NCBI GenBank assembly: GCA_945877575.1
Contig: CAMDUE010000014.1
Location: 1 to 64,000, forward strand
Reading direction: 5' to 3'
Source of the DNA: Chitinophaga pinensis
GTDB lineage: Bacteria; Bacteroidota; Bacteroidia; NS11-12g; UBA955
Length of the DNA stretch: 64,000 bases
In this document: in pieces, positions 1,947 through 42,319 of the stretch
How the letters are laid out: the number at the start of each line of letters is the position of its first letter
Position numbering within the stretch: position 1 is the stretch's first letter
Program-made: the position numbers and the translations under genes
The notes under the pieces: generated by a model
Told to the model about the DNA's origin: nothing
Seen by the model: only the letters and a program-made list of their open reading frames with translations
The model's database searches: none

Positions 1947-3611
1947 ATGCTCACCGATATAGAAATTGCGCAACAGGCCCAGTTAAAGCCTATTGCTGAG
2001 ATAGCTCGTGAAATTGGAGTTGATCAAGATTCATTGGAACCTTATGGAAAATACAAGGCCAAAATTGAGTTTTCTCAAGATGCCCAAAAACGCGCTAAAA
2101 GCAATCTCATTCTAGTCACGGCCACCACGCCCAACAAAAGCGGCAGCGGAAAAACCACCACTTCGGTTGCCCTCACACAGGGATTGCAAAAAATTGGTAA
2201 AAAGGCCATTGTAGCTCTTCGCGAGCCGTCTCTCGGGCCTTGTTTTGGGATGAAAGGAGGAGCTGCTGGCGGCGGATACTCACAAGTACTTCCCATGGAA
2301 GACATTAACTTGCACTTTACAGGCGATTTTCACGCCATTACAGCCGCTAATAACACCTTGGCTGCCCTAGTAGACAACTATCAGTACAATCACCGCGGAA
2401 AGACCACGCAATTGAAATCCGTGCTTTGGCGCCGCGTTCTTGACGTCAACGACCGTTCTCTCCGCAACATCAATACCGGTCTCGGAGGAAGCACTAACGG
2501 TATTCCCCAAGAAACTGGCTTCGACATCACTCCTGCCAGCGAAATCATGGCCATCCTTTGCCTTTCAACCTCGTTTGAGGATTTGAAAAGACGCTTAGGA
2601 CAGATTCTTTTGGGTTATACTTTCGAGGGACATGCATTCCGCGTAGCTGACTTGGGCGCTGTGGGTGCATTGGCCATCTTACTCAAAGACGCAATAAATC
2701 CAAATTTGGTTCAAACCTTAGAAGGTGGGGCAGCATTTATCCACGGTGGACCTTTTGCGAATATCGCACACGGATGTAACAGCATCATGGCAACTTACGC
2801 AGCCATGGAACACGGTGAGTACGCCATCACCGAAGCTGGATTTGGCAGCGACCTCGGCGCTGAAAAATTCTTAAACATAAAATGTCGAGCGGCTGGCATT
2901 ACACCCAAAGCCACAGTCTTGGTTACCACAACCCAAAGCTTAAAACTTCACGGTATGGTCCCAGAATCCGACATCAAACTTCCCAATAAAGAGGGTTTAG
3001 CAAAAGGATTACTCAACTTACAAAGACACGTTGAAAATCTTCAAAACTTTGGCCAATCAGTGATTGTCGCATTGAATCAATTCCACTTTGACACCGAAGA
3101 AGAATTGCAAATGGTGGAAGACTACTGCAAACAACTAGGTGCCTCTTTCGCCAGAAACCAAGGATTCGCCAAAGGCGGAGAAGGCGCGATAGAATTGGCT
3201 AAAAAAGTAGTTGAAATAGTAGAAAATAATCCATCGAAACCCATTCAACACACATATGAGTTAAATCAATCGGTTGAAGAAAAACTCACTCAAATTGTTC
3301 AGAAAGTATATGGCGGCGCGAAAGTCGTTCTCGGTGAAAAGGCTCAAAGCAGCTTAAAACAAATCAAAGAACTGGGCGCAGATCAATGGCCCGTTTGCAT
3401 TGCCAAAACCCAATTCTCGTTCACAGACAACGCCAAAAAAGTAGGCATTGAAAAAGACTTCACCATCACCATTGACAACCTCATCATCAACGCTGGAGCA
3501 GAGTTCATAGTAGCCGTAGCTGGCAGCATCATGCGCATGCCGGGTTTACCCAAAGATCCAGCCGCAATGGGAATGGATATCAATGATGGTGTGATTACAG
3601 GGTTATCGTAG
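1947..3611 (+). CDS. fhs: Formate--tetrahydrofolate ligase
   Basis: Cytosolic one-carbon enzyme: formate + ATP + tetrahydrofolate gives 10-formyl-tetrahydrofolate. The 554-residue length is typical. The family P-loop TPNKSGSGKTTT lies at residues 61-72, and the conserved block GGAAGGGYSQVLPMED follows near 104-119. I chose the ATG at 1947 (MLTDIEIAQQ) because this matches the family N-terminus; frames open further upstream overlap the mnmE promoter. The sequence TAACTTGC just before it is a weak promoter-like match. The stop codon TAG lies inside the first unit of the heptamer array that begins at 3608. Transcription probably ends at the hairpin at 3819-3850. Confidence 0.97.
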   Translation: MLTDIEIAQQAQLKPIAEIAREIGVDQDSLEPYGKYKAKIEFSQDAQKRAKSNLILVTATTPNKSGSGKTTTSVALTQGLQKIGKKAIVALREPSLGPCFGMKGGAAGGGYSQVLPMEDINLHFTGDFHAITAANNTLAALVDNYQYNHRGKTTQLKSVLWRRVLDVNDRSLRNINTGLGGSTNGIPQETGFDITPASEIMAILCLSTSFEDLKRRLGQILLGYTFEGHAFRVADLGAVGALAILLKDAINPNLVQTLEGGAAFIHGGPFANIAHGCNSIMATYAAMEHGEYAITEAGFGSDLGAEKFLNIKCRAAGITPKATVLVTTTQSLKLHGMVPESDIKLPNKEGLAKGLLNLQRHVENLQNFGQSVIVALNQFHFDTEEELQMVEDYCKQLGASFARNQGFAKGGEGAIELAKKVVEIVENNPSKPIQHTYELNQSVEEKLTQIVQKVYGGAKVVLGEKAQSSLKQIKELGADQWPVCIAKTQFSFTDNAKKVGIEKDFTITIDNLIINAGAEFIVAVAGSIMRMPGLPKDPAAMGMDINDGVITGLS

Positions 3612-3817
3612 CGGGTGCCGGGTACCGGGTACCGGGTAGCGGGTACCAAGTACCGGGTACCAAGTACCGGGTACCAAGTACCGGGTAGCGGGTAGCGGGT
3701 TTCGGACCACGGACCAAAGACCACGGACCACGGACCACAGACCACAGACCACAGACCACAGACCACAGACCACAGACCACAGACCACAGACCACGGACCA
3801 TTGACCATTGACCAAAA
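3608..3817. repeat. 30-unit heptamer tandem array (array 1)
   Basis: The 210 bp parse into exactly 30 consecutive 7-bp units with no break in register. The first 14 are of the type GTACCGG, GTAGCGG or GTACCAA; the last 16 are ACCACAG, ACCACGG, ACCATTG and similar, including eight identical ACCACAG in a row. The first unit contains the fhs stop codon, and the last abuts the A-tract of the terminator. Open frames on the minus strand that read as repeats of L-W-S-V-V-C-G are a by-product of the array. A second array with shared units lies at 34557-34941. Confidence 0.95.
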
Positions 3818-3818
3818 T

Positions 3819-3850
3819 AAAAAAGCCCGATGTTTCCATCGGGCTTTTTT
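3819..3850. terminator. Bidirectional terminator between fhs and the giant secreted-protein gene
   Basis: AAAAAAGCCCGATG, loop TTTC, then CATCGGGCTTTTTT. The perfect GC-rich stem is flanked by A6 and T6, so it can end transcription from both convergent genes. Confidence 0.93.
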
Positions 3851-3853
3851 ATT

Positions 3854-33417: not shown

Positions 33418-33425
33418 TATCTTTG
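33418..33425 (+). promoter_or_regulatory. -7 promoter element of ald
   Basis: TATCTTTG matches TAnnTTTG and lies 18 nt before the ald ATG, immediately after the preceding gene's stop codon. Confidence 0.65.
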
Positions 33426-33443
33426 CCCCAATTTTTCAAAACC

Positions 33444-34553
33444 ATGATAATCGGGGTACCTAAAGAAATCAAGAACAACGAAAACCGCGTTGCAGTAACT
33501 CCTGCTGGAGTAAGTGAATTTGTAAAACATGGACATAAAGTTTATGTTCAATCAACCGCCGGTCTAGGCAGTGGTTTCTCTGACGAGGAATACACCAAAG
33601 CCGGTGCTAATCTACTCCCAACCATTGAGGAAGTCTACGGCATCGCCGAAATGATTGTAAAGGTTAAGGAACCCATTGAACAAGAATATTCTTTGATTCG
33701 TGCTGGACAATTATTGTTCACTTATTTCCATTTCGCTTCTTACGAGCCTTTGACCCATGCTATGATCAAAAGTGGAGCCATTTGCTTAGCTTATGAAACC
33801 GTTGAAGTTAACAGATCTTTGCCACTGCTCATCCCTATGAGCGAAGTTGCTGGTCGTATGAGTATCCAAGAAGGTGCTAAATACCTTGAAAAACCCATGG
33901 GCGGCCGCGGAATCCTTTTAGGAGGCGTACCAGGTGTTAAACCTGCAAACGTAGTAGTTCTAGGTGGCGGAATCGTAGGGACTCAAGCAGCCAAAATGGC
34001 CGCAGGCTTGGGTGCTGACGTAACCATCATGGATGTTAGTTTGAATCGCTTGCGTCAACTTGACGATATCATGCCAGCAAACGTTAAAACTCAATACAGC
34101 AACGATTACAACATTCGCGAAGCAGTAAAAACTGCAGACCTCGTAATTGGTGGCGTATTAATCCCAGGTGCTAAAGCTCCAAAATTGATCACCAAAGATA
34201 TGCTTTCTACCATGCGTCCTGGTTCTGTCATTGTTGACGTTGCCATTGACCAAGGAGGCTGTTTTGAAACTTCAAAACCAACCACTCACGCTGAACCAAC
34301 TTACGTAGTTGACGGAGTAGTACACTATTGCGTAGCAAACATGCCAGGTGCAGTTCCTTATACATCAACACTTGCATTAACCAACGCAACCCTTCCCTAT
34401 GCCGTTCAACTAGCCAATAAAGGTTGGAAGCAAGCTTGCTCTGACAACGCTGACCTTCGCCTCGGGCTAAACGTAGTCGAAGGAAAAGTAGTTTACGAAG
34501 GTGTTAGCGAAGCATTTAACCTACCCTACACCCCTGTAAACGAGGTACTTTAA
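33444..34553 (+). CDS. ald: Alanine dehydrogenase
   Basis: 369 residues. It catalyses the NAD-linked interconversion of L-alanine with pyruvate and ammonia. The N-terminus [20 protein letters not shown] carries the conserved substrate-binding Arg, and Lys follows in MIVKVKEP. The nucleotide fold has [17 protein letters not shown], and the catalytic-domain motif [20 protein letters not shown] is nearly invariant in the family. I chose the ATG at 33444, downstream of the promoter element, over an in-frame start 21 bp earlier. A long heptamer array begins 3 bp after the stop codon. Confidence 0.96.
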
Positions 34554-34556
34554 TAG

Positions 34557-34941
34557 GTACCGGGTATCGGGTATCGGGTATCGGGTACCGGGTACCGGGT
34601 ACCGGGTATCGGGTACCGGGTACCGGGTATCGGGTATCGGGTATCGGGTATCGGGTACCGGGTATCGGGTATCGGGTGTTGGGTACCGGGCTTAGGGTTT
34701 CATGCAAAATGCTGTCACTAGACCCTAGTCACTCGTCCCTCGTCTCAAGTCACCAGTCCCTCGTCACCAGTCACCAGTCACCAGCCCCTAGTCACTAGCC
34801 AACAGACTACGGACTATCGACTAAAGTCCAAGTACCAAGTACCATAGACCAGGTACCATAGACCATAGACCAGGTACCATAGACCATAGACCAGGTACCT
34901 GGTACATGTACCAAAGACTAAAGACCATGTCCCAAAGACTA
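34557..34941. repeat. 55-unit heptamer tandem array (array 2)
   Basis: The 385 bp divide into 55 consecutive 7-bp units with no register slip. Three sub-families follow in order: GTATCGG/GTACCGG (19 units to 34689), a degenerate block centred on CTAGTCA/CCAGTCA (about 34711-34801), and AAGTACC/ATAGACC/AGGTACC (about 34830-34899). The end of the array contains the ATG of the alpha/beta hydrolase gene at 34927, so residues 1-5 of that protein are encoded by repeat units. Units GTACCGG and AAGTACC (in phase-shifted form) are shared with array 1 at 3608-3817. The whole intergenic gap is made of this array; nothing else is seen in it. Confidence 0.95.
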
Positions 34942-35700
34942 AATTATAAAATATACGGAGAAGAGCATTCCAAAACCATCATCATTTTGCATGGTGTTTT
35001 TGGAATGCTTGATAATTGGCACTTGGCGGCGAAAGCATTATCAGAAACTCATAAAGTAGTTACCTACGATGCTCGAAATCACGGTAAGTCATTTCATGAT
35101 AAAGATTGTTCTTATCAGGCTATGTCAAATGATTTGCTTCACCTCATGGAAGAACTTAACATTGAAAATGCCTATATTCTAGCTCATTCAATGGGTGGAA
35201 AAACCGCCATGCTTTTTGCAGATCAACATCCCCAGAAAGTAATTAAATTGATACCCGTTGATATTGCACCAAAAGCTTATCACGCAGGACATCTTGAGTA
35301 CATTCAGGCTTTTAAAAGCATCGATTTTAGCAAAATTCAATCCCGTAAAGAGGCGGATGATGCGTTCCTGCCCTATGCCCCTATCTTGGGTGTTAGGCAA
35401 TTCTTGTTGAAAAACCTCGAAGTCAATCCATCTGGGGGATATCAACTTAAAATAAACATCAATGCCATTGAAAATCATTATTACGACATCATTGGCGGAT
35501 TGAATTTTCAGAATGTCTTCAACGGTGAGACCCACTTCATTTTGGGTGAAAAAAGTGGATACCTAAAAGAATCTGACAAACCCTACATTGAACAACATTT
35601 TCCACATTCCAATTATCACACCATCAGCAAAGCAGGACATTGGGTGCATGCTGACAACCCCGAAGAATTTCTGCAAGTGGTAAAAGCAATTATTGATTAA
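34927..35700 (+). CDS. Alpha/beta hydrolase (YbfF-like esterase)
   Basis: 257 residues from the ATG at 34927. HGVFGMLDNWH gives the oxyanion region, the nucleophile is Ser in AHSMGGK, and the His is in AGHWVHAD. The pattern DARNHGKS is typical of YbfF-type acyl esterases. The substrate is unknown. The first residues MSQRL are encoded within the heptamer array. An earlier in-frame ATG at 34906 also lies in the array and cannot be excluded. It leads a three-gene plus-strand run with a barrel protein and waaA. Confidence 0.85.
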   Translation: MSQRLNYKIYGEEHSKTIIILHGVFGMLDNWHLAAKALSETHKVVTYDARNHGKSFHDKDCSYQAMSNDLLHLMEELNIENAYILAHSMGGKTAMLFADQHPQKVIKLIPVDIAPKAYHAGHLEYIQAFKSIDFSKIQSRKEADDAFLPYAPILGVRQFLLKNLEVNPSGGYQLKININAIENHYYDIIGGLNFQNVFNGETHFILGEKSGYLKESDKPYIEQHFPHSNYHTISKAGHWVHADNPEEFLQVVKAIID

Positions 35701-35711: not shown

Positions 35712-36500
35712 ATGAGAAATAAGTGGGTCCTTATTCTGCTTTTGTCGAGCTTCATAAACTTGAAGGCCCAAATGGGTTCGATTTCTGATTCTACTAGAAA
35801 GAAAAATGAAGAAAAAAGCTGGATCCTCATGCATGTCGCAGCAACCTATAGCGTGAATGCCGGTGATTGGGCCGATAGATATCCTGCGTACACCGCTTTG
35901 CCGCTCAGACTGGAATATTACCACAAAAATAAATACACCCTAGGCACCGATTTTAGCTTCTATCTCGGCTCACAAGTAAACTCAGCCGGTATGTTTCCAG
36001 ACATGACCGATGAAGATGGTGCACTTCGCGACAATAATGGTTATCCAGCCGTAGTTAGATATTACATGCGAGGTTGGTCTTCAAGAGCTTACGCCTTAAA
36101 AATCATTCCATTAAACCGCAATACCAAAAAAGAAGCCCGTTGGTCCATGCAATTGGGCGGCGGACTTGGATATACCAGGCATTATACCAAATTCAATTTC
36201 GACTTGGACATGGTTCCTCAGTTGGAAGATGAATATTTGGGCGGCTATGACCGGCTCACCACTGGCACACAATTATTTGAGCAAATTAGATTTCAATATT
36301 TGGATAATTCATCGGTTTCACTTTCTGCAGGATTTGAATTCCTTCAGGGATTCACCAAACACCAACGCGAATATGATTTCACCACCCGAAGTCCACAAAA
36401 TCAAGGTTACTTTGATTTAGGAATTGGTGCATTTATTGGGGTCATCATTCCCATTAAGCTCGGACAAACTTCGGCTTCAGAAGAATATTACATTGATTAA
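35712..36500 (+). CDS. Predicted outer-membrane beta-barrel protein, unknown function
   Basis: 262 residues with signal peptide MRNKWVLILLLSSFINLKAQ. The rest is rich in alternating aromatic/polar beta-strands (YTLGTDFSFYLGSQ, WSMQLGGGLGYTRHY, SVSLSAGFEFLQGF, YFDLGIGAFIGVIIPIKLG), consistent with a small barrel of about 8-10 strands. I do not recognise a named family. The stop codon abuts the ATG of waaA, so the two are probably translated together, hinting at a link to lipopolysaccharide. Confidence 0.65.
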   Translation: MRNKWVLILLLSSFINLKAQMGSISDSTRKKNEEKSWILMHVAATYSVNAGDWADRYPAYTALPLRLEYYHKNKYTLGTDFSFYLGSQVNSAGMFPDMTDEDGALRDNNGYPAVVRYYMRGWSSRAYALKIIPLNRNTKKEARWSMQLGGGLGYTRHYTKFNFDLDMVPQLEDEYLGGYDRLTTGTQLFEQIRFQYLDNSSVSLSAGFEFLQGFTKHQREYDFTTRSPQNQGYFDLGIGAFIGVIIPIKLGQTSASEEYYID

Positions 36501-40856: not shown

Positions 40857-41714
40857 ATGATTCATTATCTGAGAATCATTCGCCCCATAAACCTCCTACT
40901 GACTATACTCACTCAGTGGCTTTTCTATTTATCGGCATCTCGTGTCAATGCCGGACTGAGTTTGTTTGATTTTTCCAATCTTCGATTTCCAGAAAGTATC
41001 ACGGCTACTTTGGCCTGTGTTTTTGTTGCCGCAGGCGGATATGTGATCAACGATATCTTTGATATCGAAACAGACAAAATAAATCGACCTGGCAAACGCA
41101 TCGCCGTTGAAAGCACTTCAGTAAAGTCAATGAGAATCTATTACATAGCATTAACTTTAACTGGAATCTCTTTGGGCTTCATCACAGGCCTTGGCATGGG
41201 CATATTATCAACCGTTATAGCCGTACTTCTTTATTTTTATTCCAGCGATTTCAAAGCAGAATTCTTGATGGGAAACCTTTTAGTCTCTTTGATGGCCGGA
41301 ATGGTGGTTTATATTGCATCTAGAGGCGTGTACCTAGTCAATAAAGCCTATTTCGCAGAGTTTTCAAGTATTGCGTTTTTTATCACTTTTGCACGTGAAC
41401 TCATCAAAGATTTGGAAGATTATGATGGTGACAAGGAACAAGGATATGAAACTTTTGCCATCAGCAGCGGCCGCGTAAAAACCAAGATTCTCTCAAGTCT
41501 TTTCATTGCGTGTAGTTTGGCATTACTCGTTTTAATTGGCCTAACGGGAAACGAAATAGAATATTGGATATTTACAAGCACAATTCTTGCGCCTTTACAC
41601 CTTTATCTGCTTTGGAAGATTTACATGTCCTCAGAGAAAAAACACTACAGCCATATTTCAAATTGGCTCAAATATGCCATGTTTATTGGCCTTTTAGCTA
41701 GTTTGGTTAGTTAA
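40857..41714 (+). CDS. UbiA-family prenyltransferase (geranylgeranylglyceryl phosphate synthase-like)
   Basis: 285 residues, eight or nine predicted membrane spans. Two aspartate-rich motifs are seen: NDIFDIETDKIN near residue 64 and DLEDYDGDKEQGYETFA near 182. The N-terminal RIIRPINLLLTILTQ and the second motif fit Bacteroidota proteins annotated as geranylgeranylglycerol-phosphate geranylgeranyltransferase rather than MenA, though the acceptor is not certain. It ends 11 bp from the convergent DUF3109 gene. Confidence 0.8.
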   Translation: MIHYLRIIRPINLLLTILTQWLFYLSASRVNAGLSLFDFSNLRFPESITATLACVFVAAGGYVINDIFDIETDKINRPGKRIAVESTSVKSMRIYYIALTLTGISLGFITGLGMGILSTVIAVLLYFYSSDFKAEFLMGNLLVSLMAGMVVYIASRGVYLVNKAYFAEFSSIAFFITFARELIKDLEDYDGDKEQGYETFAISSGRVKTKILSSLFIACSLALLVLIGLTGNEIEYWIFTSTILAPLHLYLLWKIYMSSEKKHYSHISNWLKYAMFIGLLASLVS

Positions 41715-41725
41715 ATACTGGCAAG

Positions 41726-42319
41726 TTAATTCTCAGAATCCTCCCCTTTAGATTCCTCCCAAGCCTTACTCACCTCTTCCAATTCCTTGTACCATTCAGC
41801 ACCCATTTTTCGAATCAAGGGTTCCTTTAAAAACTCAAATACGCGCACATTCATCTCTGAACCTGCCTTGCATGCCGGATTGCAAATATCCCACTTGTGA
41901 TAGTTGAGTGCGGTGTAATTTCCGTAGCGCTTCGCTCGAATGGGGTACAAATGACAACTTATAGGCTTCTTGAATTCCGTTTCACCAGCTTCATAGGCCA
42001 TCTCAAAGCTGCATTTTGCAATGCCACTCCCATCGTACTGCACAAATACGCATTCACCTGATTTTTGACACTCGGTTACCAATTCACCGTCAGGATCTCG
42101 AGTGTGAAAACCTTTTTCGGCCAAATATTCTAAGGCGTCAGAACGCATGTATTTCTTCACCGTAGGCAACACATTCTCAATGATCTCCAATTCAGCGTGC
42201 AATAAGGGTGCTCCAGCATCACCTTCAATGCAACATGCACCTTTACAATGATCTAACTGACAAACAAACCGCTTATCAAAAATATCTTCCGATAAAATGG
42301 CATCGCCTACAATGATCAT
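41726..42319 (-). CDS. DUF3109-family cysteine-rich protein
   Basis: 197 residues. Multiple conserved Cys motifs: [11 protein letters not shown] near the N-terminus, CQKSGEC and KCSFE, then ISCHLYP and WDICNPAC. Cys-rich YkgJ/DUF3109 proteins probably bind a metal or iron-sulfur cluster; the function is unknown. The start codon overlaps the purE stop by 4 bp. Confidence 0.85.

Follow-up and report, generated by a model that had tools for sequence, protein, structure and literature searches.

Heptamers rank with the commonest long simple repeats of bacteria, and two questions date from 2007: why the unit should be seven and what drives such repeats. In the account given in PMC4679880, Mrazek et al. 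(2007) found seven to be the commonest unit length of long repeats in most bacterial genomes and proposed slippage as the cause of heptanucleotide long simple sequence repeats (LSSRs). In Xanthomonas, G-rich GGGNATC heptamers are dispersed between genes in 70 to 75 pairs per genome, with the members of a pair convergent on opposite strands (Rehm et al., 2015; PMC4692102). They lie near the end of the 5' neighboring ORF, and their length and sequence differ between species. Heptamer direct repeats were also described in Beggiatoaceae, Cyanobacteria, and some Bacteroidetes, with long intergenic assemblages in Gramella, Aequorivita, and Elizabethkingia and with relatives that lack heptamers at the same gene pair (MacGregor, 2015; PMC4679880). 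An earlier reading of the present locus, made from the letters alone (the sequence-only reading), knew of no defined function for such repeats in Bacteroidota. The suggestion that nothing was known there is only partly right, because heptamer assemblages had already been noted.

In the window (the whole stretch of 64,000 nucleotides that was analyzed), a heptamer array of 385 bp (34557 to 34941) fills the gap between ald, the alanine dehydrogenase gene (33423 to 34553, plus strand; Pfam AlaDh_PNT_N/C), and an alpha/beta hydrolase gene (34927 to 35700, plus strand; Pfam Abhydrolase_1). It begins 3 bp past the ald stop codon (TAA) and extends through the hydrolase start, just as the sequence-only reading had placed it. 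Lag-7 identity in the array is 0.72, compared with 0.14 to 0.29 (about 0.26) at lags not divisible by 7. TRF reported 19.3 copies of GGTATCG at 34556 to 34690 (score, 200) and more rows with periods of 7, 14, and 21 that reach 34914. When the whole window was scanned at lags 2 to 30 (70-base windows, at least 60% lag identity), qualifying windows were found at lags 7, 14, 21, and 28 alone. The hydrolase gene is followed by a region (35712 to 36500) encoding a protein that has no Pfam match and is kept beside the hydrolase in genus relatives.

The array has two arms and a center. The first arm (34557 to 34690, plus strand), defined by TRF and a unit parse, consists of about 19 G/T-rich heptamers of the form GTAYCGG (TATCGGG/TACCGGG). 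The center (about 34691 to 34717), located by the parse and by the change point of the GC skew, has no heptamer repetition; its approximately four units, GCTTAGG, GTTTCAT, GCAAAAT, and GCTGTCA, are not repeats, and the strand polarity switches here. The second arm lies on the minus strand. Its inner block (34718 to 34829) is built of CTAGTCA/CCAGTCA (TRF, 34714 to 34798, period 7; parse), and its outer block (34830 to 34941) is built of AAGTACC/ATAGACC/AGGTACC (TRF, 34828 to 34899, period 21, 94% matches; parse). This outer block forms a 21-bp higher-order repeat and covers the first codons of the hydrolase. Because the first arm is G/T-rich and the second is C/A-rich, the G-rich strand runs inward from both ends.

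The sequence-only reading had counted 55 units without a register slip and had seen one unbroken register across changing families. However, 385 = 55 x 7 is mere arithmetic when the center is not repetitive. Only one core, GGTACC, is found in both the first block and the last; it has phase 4 (mod 7) in the former (34556 + 7k) and phase 6 in the latter (34852), 2 bp off. Therefore, these blocks have no common register, and the claim gives way to two arms that are opposite in polarity and differ in phase. A fixed register between arms is rejected more generally, because six of the seven conceivable arm-to-arm offsets occur genome-wide (each value is uncertain by 1 owing to GGG/CCC runs).

We compared the same gap in relatives. 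It measures 377 bp in the genome studied here (G000, 99.9% complete) and 167 bp, with different heptamers, in a sister species (G011, 74% complete). In other members of the genus it is array-free and measures 6 to 78 bp, being either 6 to 23 bp long or 76 to 78 bp long with an intrinsic terminator. That terminator is strong in several of the relatives and is missing here. Because an array occupies this gap in independent genomes, an assembly artifact is unlikely.

A second array in the window has the same layout, with a first arm of TACCGGG/TAGCGGG (3608 to 3704, plus strand) and a second arm of GACCACA/GACCATT (3705 to 3814, minus strand), both defined by TRF and parse, and the orthologous G011 gap also bears an array. 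An ordinary bidirectional intrinsic terminator stands beside it (3819 to 3851); its stem, GCCCGATG/CATCGGGC, is bordered by runs of A and of T. At 41693 to 41763, gap comparison with G011 identified the array-free counterpart of a G011 gap that holds an array of about 220 bp. Neither the second array nor the polarity switch at the center of the first had been noticed in the sequence-only reading.

Both genomes are rich in such arrays. G000 has 60 lag-7 arrays in 843 kb, a sample picked in part around known matches, compared with 0 to 4 at lags 4 to 6 and 8 to 13. In 451 kb of contiguous sequence taken without selection (C1:1-180000 and C2), there are 25 arrays, and the total would extrapolate to something above 100 arrays in 2.5 Mb. 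G011 has 44 lag-7 arrays in 412 kb, in a sample with one stretch (L151, C3:45001-65000) picked for a match. No arrays were found in the other genus members sampled or in a 50-kb piece of Escherichia coli. Across the phylum, 80 random Bacteroidota loci (676 kb) yielded 12 lag-7 arrays and 0 to 1 at lags 5, 6, and 8 to 12, and therefore the propensity for seven is phylum-wide. In a scan of 296 genomes, six copies of TNNNNGG were found in 101, and other genomes favored the mirror pattern. The arrays thus fit the broad class of dispersed intergenic heptamer repeats (STRR-like repeats and heptanucleotide LSSRs): they are head-to-tail 7-bp units above chance and above other lags, in many dispersed and mainly intergenic copies per genome. 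The sequence-only reading had staked its case on other 7-bp arrays in the genome and on length variation among relatives; the genome proves to be full of arrays, and the ald gap varies between species as described above, with one genome compared per species.

Several individual arrays deserve mention. Two contigs end inside arrays (the L044 end, G000:C2:270345-270679, and the L189 end, G011:C5:31521-31670); therefore, arrays break assemblies, and copy numbers are perhaps underestimated. A member of the family (G014, L154 7321-8107) has near-perfect GGTAAGT arrays with an AATGGAT cassette every ~360 bp. The array at G011:C2:44675-44857 is built of TTTAGGG, the same sequence as the plant telomere repeat, presumably by coincidence.

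The inward polarity of the ald array is a general property. In arrays whose sign switch is strong, the inward order (GG before CC) was found in 25 of 25 in G000 and in 12 of 12 in G011, and the ratio in other Bacteroidota arrays was 18:1. The lone exception (L273) has a single, G-rich arm, and its edges were misjudged. Inward polarity prevailed beside gene 3' ends (62:11) and also beside gene 5' ends (24:6), and therefore it goes with the array itself and does not follow the sense of transcription. Single-arm arrays are also common. Families are layered within arms. Reading inward, the outer half holds TACCGGG at 14 of 14 loci, TATCGGG at 11 of 11, TAGTTGG at 7 of 7, and, in G011, TGATCGG at 13 of 13. 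TTTCGGG lies further in, and TCTCTAG and TCAGCGG are among the few families with no fixed side. Contigs of a viral collection (IMG/VR; L290 9002-9133 and 654-785, L288 6772-6895) carry inward GGTGATC...CTGATCA arrays with a unique central hairpin, and the two-arm layout may reach further than the host genomes examined in this work.

The arrays favor convergent gaps and lie against stop codons. With gap orientations taken from a coding-score gene caller, arrays occupy 21% (G000) and 30% (G011) of convergent gaps but only 3 to 5% of tandem gaps and 7% of divergent gaps. The median distance from an array edge to a stop codon is 0 bp (at most 10 bp for 49 of 63 edges), and that to a start codon is 87 bp. 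Arrays whose growth is checked by coding and promoter constraints would be placed in this way, and so, equally, would a 3'-end element. Intrinsic terminators were found in 4 of 21 array-bearing gaps versus 12 of 41 other gaps, and in 2 of 14 versus 5 of 22. The difference is not significant, and terminator loss where arrays sit is only a trend.

Position is conserved between the two species, and the words are not. For six G000 arrays, both flanks could be placed in the G011 stretches that were sampled, and in all six cases the corresponding G011 gap also bears an array. The two heptamer vocabularies are nevertheless almost disjoint. TGATCGG occurs at 20 G011 loci and at no G000 locus (Fisher p 1e-9), TTTCGGG at none and 14, respectively (p 3e-4), and TATCGGG at 1 and 13 (p 4e-3). 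DNA identity between the species is ~81%, so neutral spacers would be unrecognizable anyway; the point is that the words are common to unlinked loci within one genome. At one G011 site, two arrays are written in G000-like words (L151 10058-10333 and 10983-11152; G011:C3:55058-56152). The surrounding region has no other match to G000, and these arrays were probably imported along with flanking DNA.

Tracts of 28 bp common to different loci were found in only 1 and 3 locus pairs, so that the spread must be old or must proceed via short tracts; recent long-tract copying between loci is nearly absent. Transposition with common flanks was also rejected, because flanks match only within one cluster or via leftover repeats. 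In some arrays the best-matching lag is 14, 21, or 28, which indicates steps of several units.

At the ald locus, the array has reached a coding sequence. The comparison covered orthologues of the hydrolase in 12 genus relatives, and in relatives the protein begins M-L-V-N-Y-K-I-Y-G (in L162, ATG CTA GTT AAC TAT AAA ATA TAC GG). The ancestral ATG has become AGA here, within the repeat-like AAAGACTA. The nearest in-frame ATGs upstream of the lost start are at 34927 (34927 to 34929, plus strand), identified from the orthologues and the ORF list, and 21 bp away at 34906, and both are inside the array; a protein started at the former would begin MSQRL, and one started at the latter would begin MYQRL. 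In the sister species, the array ends short of the hydrolase ATG, which is kept. These comparisons support the proposal of the sequence-only reading that the hydrolase start codon and N terminus are repeat-derived.

We suggest that the arrays are probably dispersed, noncoding, satellite-like heptamer repeats that are self-expanding, largely neutral, and bounded by coding and promoter constraints. In this model, an arm would lengthen or shorten by one or more whole 7-bp units, through replication slippage or unequal exchange, and phase would therefore be kept within a family block. Growth in 7-bp steps, as the sequence-only reading had proposed, is supported. The two arms are mutually independent, and typically their G/T-rich strands face each other. 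An array would fill its gap up to selected DNA, namely, the stop codon on a 3' side and the promoter region on a 5' side. At the ald locus, it has run into the hydrolase start and substituted an ATG of its own. Because the vocabulary is species-wide and almost wholly different from that of the sister species, there must be a route by which variants pass from locus to locus, and recombination of short tracts between arrays is the simplest. The data show the architecture, the polarity, the placement, the conservation of position under a changed vocabulary, and the array-derived start codon; we infer slippage and exchange as the engine, and likewise the near-neutrality. Slippage alone, however, fails to account for a vocabulary common to unlinked loci, and the near-absence of long common tracts argues against recent long-tract conversion. 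Nor does the satellite model account for the constant inward direction of the G-rich strand; with so strict a polarity, a neutral array requires some additional mechanical rule. As a guess, each arm might grow on the 3' strand of a DNA end that has broken or folded back, before the two ends are joined.

An alternative, which we consider unlikely, is that the arrays are selected 3'-end elements. Between convergent genes, they would then terminate transcription in both directions, act as insulators, or protect the 3' ends of mRNAs, and the inward G-rich arms would be the functional part. The strong bias to convergent gaps and stop codons, the conservation of positions under changing sequence, the strong terminator in the ald gap of several relatives that is missing here, and the somewhat (not significantly) lower number of intrinsic terminators in array-bearing gaps are all in line with it. 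However, the same placement would be expected if growth were tolerated solely where no promoter is affected, the polarity is the same upstream of genes, and the array at 3608 to 3814 adjoins an ordinary terminator. Furthermore, the arms pair no better than controls: folding gave -0.405 kcal/mol per nt for the observed arms, -0.409 with the right arm reverse complemented, and -0.435 with arms swapped between loci, and an RNA hairpin between the arms is therefore rejected. Terminator stems as seeds of the polarity are not supported either, because G-rich and C-rich 5' stem arms are about equally frequent (46:46 in G000 and 21:25 in G011). G-quadruplex formation, as proposed for the Xanthomonas repeats, is very improbable as the explanation. 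The four-tract G3 motif occurs in 38 of 60 G000 arrays but in only 3 of 44 G011 arrays, although architecture and positions match, which largely refutes quadruplexes as a general property at the level of sequence.

Two further ideas bear on the vocabulary. The arrays could be sites of a fast-evolving DNA-binding protein, such as a nucleoid organizer or a Chi-like recombination signal, whose specificity sets the words of each species. Chi sites of other bacteria are likewise G-rich and strand-polar, and the vocabulary is species-specific. We nevertheless find this idea quite improbable: units are heterogeneous within one array, and outside arrays they are not enriched (observed/expected, 0.86 to 1.08 in both genomes), which rejects selection for such sites. 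A dedicated system might instead add G/T-rich repeats to the 3' strand on each side of a break and then join the ends, as in a telomere fusion, giving inward arms and a species-specific vocabulary. It would account for inward polarity, independent arms, a nonrepetitive center, the consistent layering from border to center (TACCGGG outer, TTTCGGG inner), a common vocabulary without long common tracts, and the existence of an array-free counterpart site. Yet single-arm arrays are common, no candidate enzyme was found, and the 99.9% complete G000 genome has no RVT_1 (PF00078) reverse transcriptase, which counts against templated arrays of the retro-element or telomerase type; we give this proposal little credence. 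Its boldest form, a host process not known in bacteria that writes G/T-rich heptamers at breaks, leaving fused telomere-like scars whose vocabulary is replaced genome-wide between species, is highly improbable. The satellite-like reading remains the one we prefer. Plain slippage fails to satisfy three testable constraints seen here: an inward polarity that hardly varies, positions that are kept while the vocabulary is replaced, and placement at stop codons. The arrays further illustrate how the start codon of a gene can be captured by a repeat, and they may be a reason for break points in many Bacteroidota draft genomes.

Like REP/BIME elements, the arrays are dispersed, intergenic, located 3' of genes, and inverted in layout. 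However, they have no palindromic unit of 20 to 40 bp, and the Y1_Tnp (PF01797)/RAYT transposase is absent from G000 and from the 74% complete G011. They share with cyanobacterial STRR sequences short tandem 7-bp units that are dispersed and intergenic, a likeness in kind that the sequence-only reading rightly saw. STRR sequences are defined by particular cyanobacterial heptanucleotide units, and the host here belongs to the Bacteroidota; to our knowledge, a two-arm layout is not part of their definition. In contrast to heptanucleotide LSSRs, our degenerate, multifamily, two-arm arrays largely escape surveys of exact repeats. The repeats of MacGregor (PMC4679880) are likewise long intergenic heptamer assemblages that occur also in Bacteroidetes, but they are direct repeats of a single unit, TAACTGA, lying mostly just upstream of start codons, and neither inward polarity nor stop-codon placement is described for them. 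TAACTGA is not among the tandem families listed here, and our array edges lie at stop codons. The closest precedent for inward polarity is the GGGNATC pairs of Xanthomonas, with which the arrays share convergence on opposite strands. Xanthomonas has one heptamer family, whereas here each array has several, with different families in the two arms; quadruplex-type G3 tracts are not general here; and the vocabulary is almost fully replaced in a sister species at conserved positions. In the open-access literature, we found no description of an inward polarity that holds across a phylum or of a vocabulary that is replaced while array positions are conserved. Heptamer arrays, including convergent pairs, are already known, but the phylum-wide inward polarity and the species vocabularies appear to be new.
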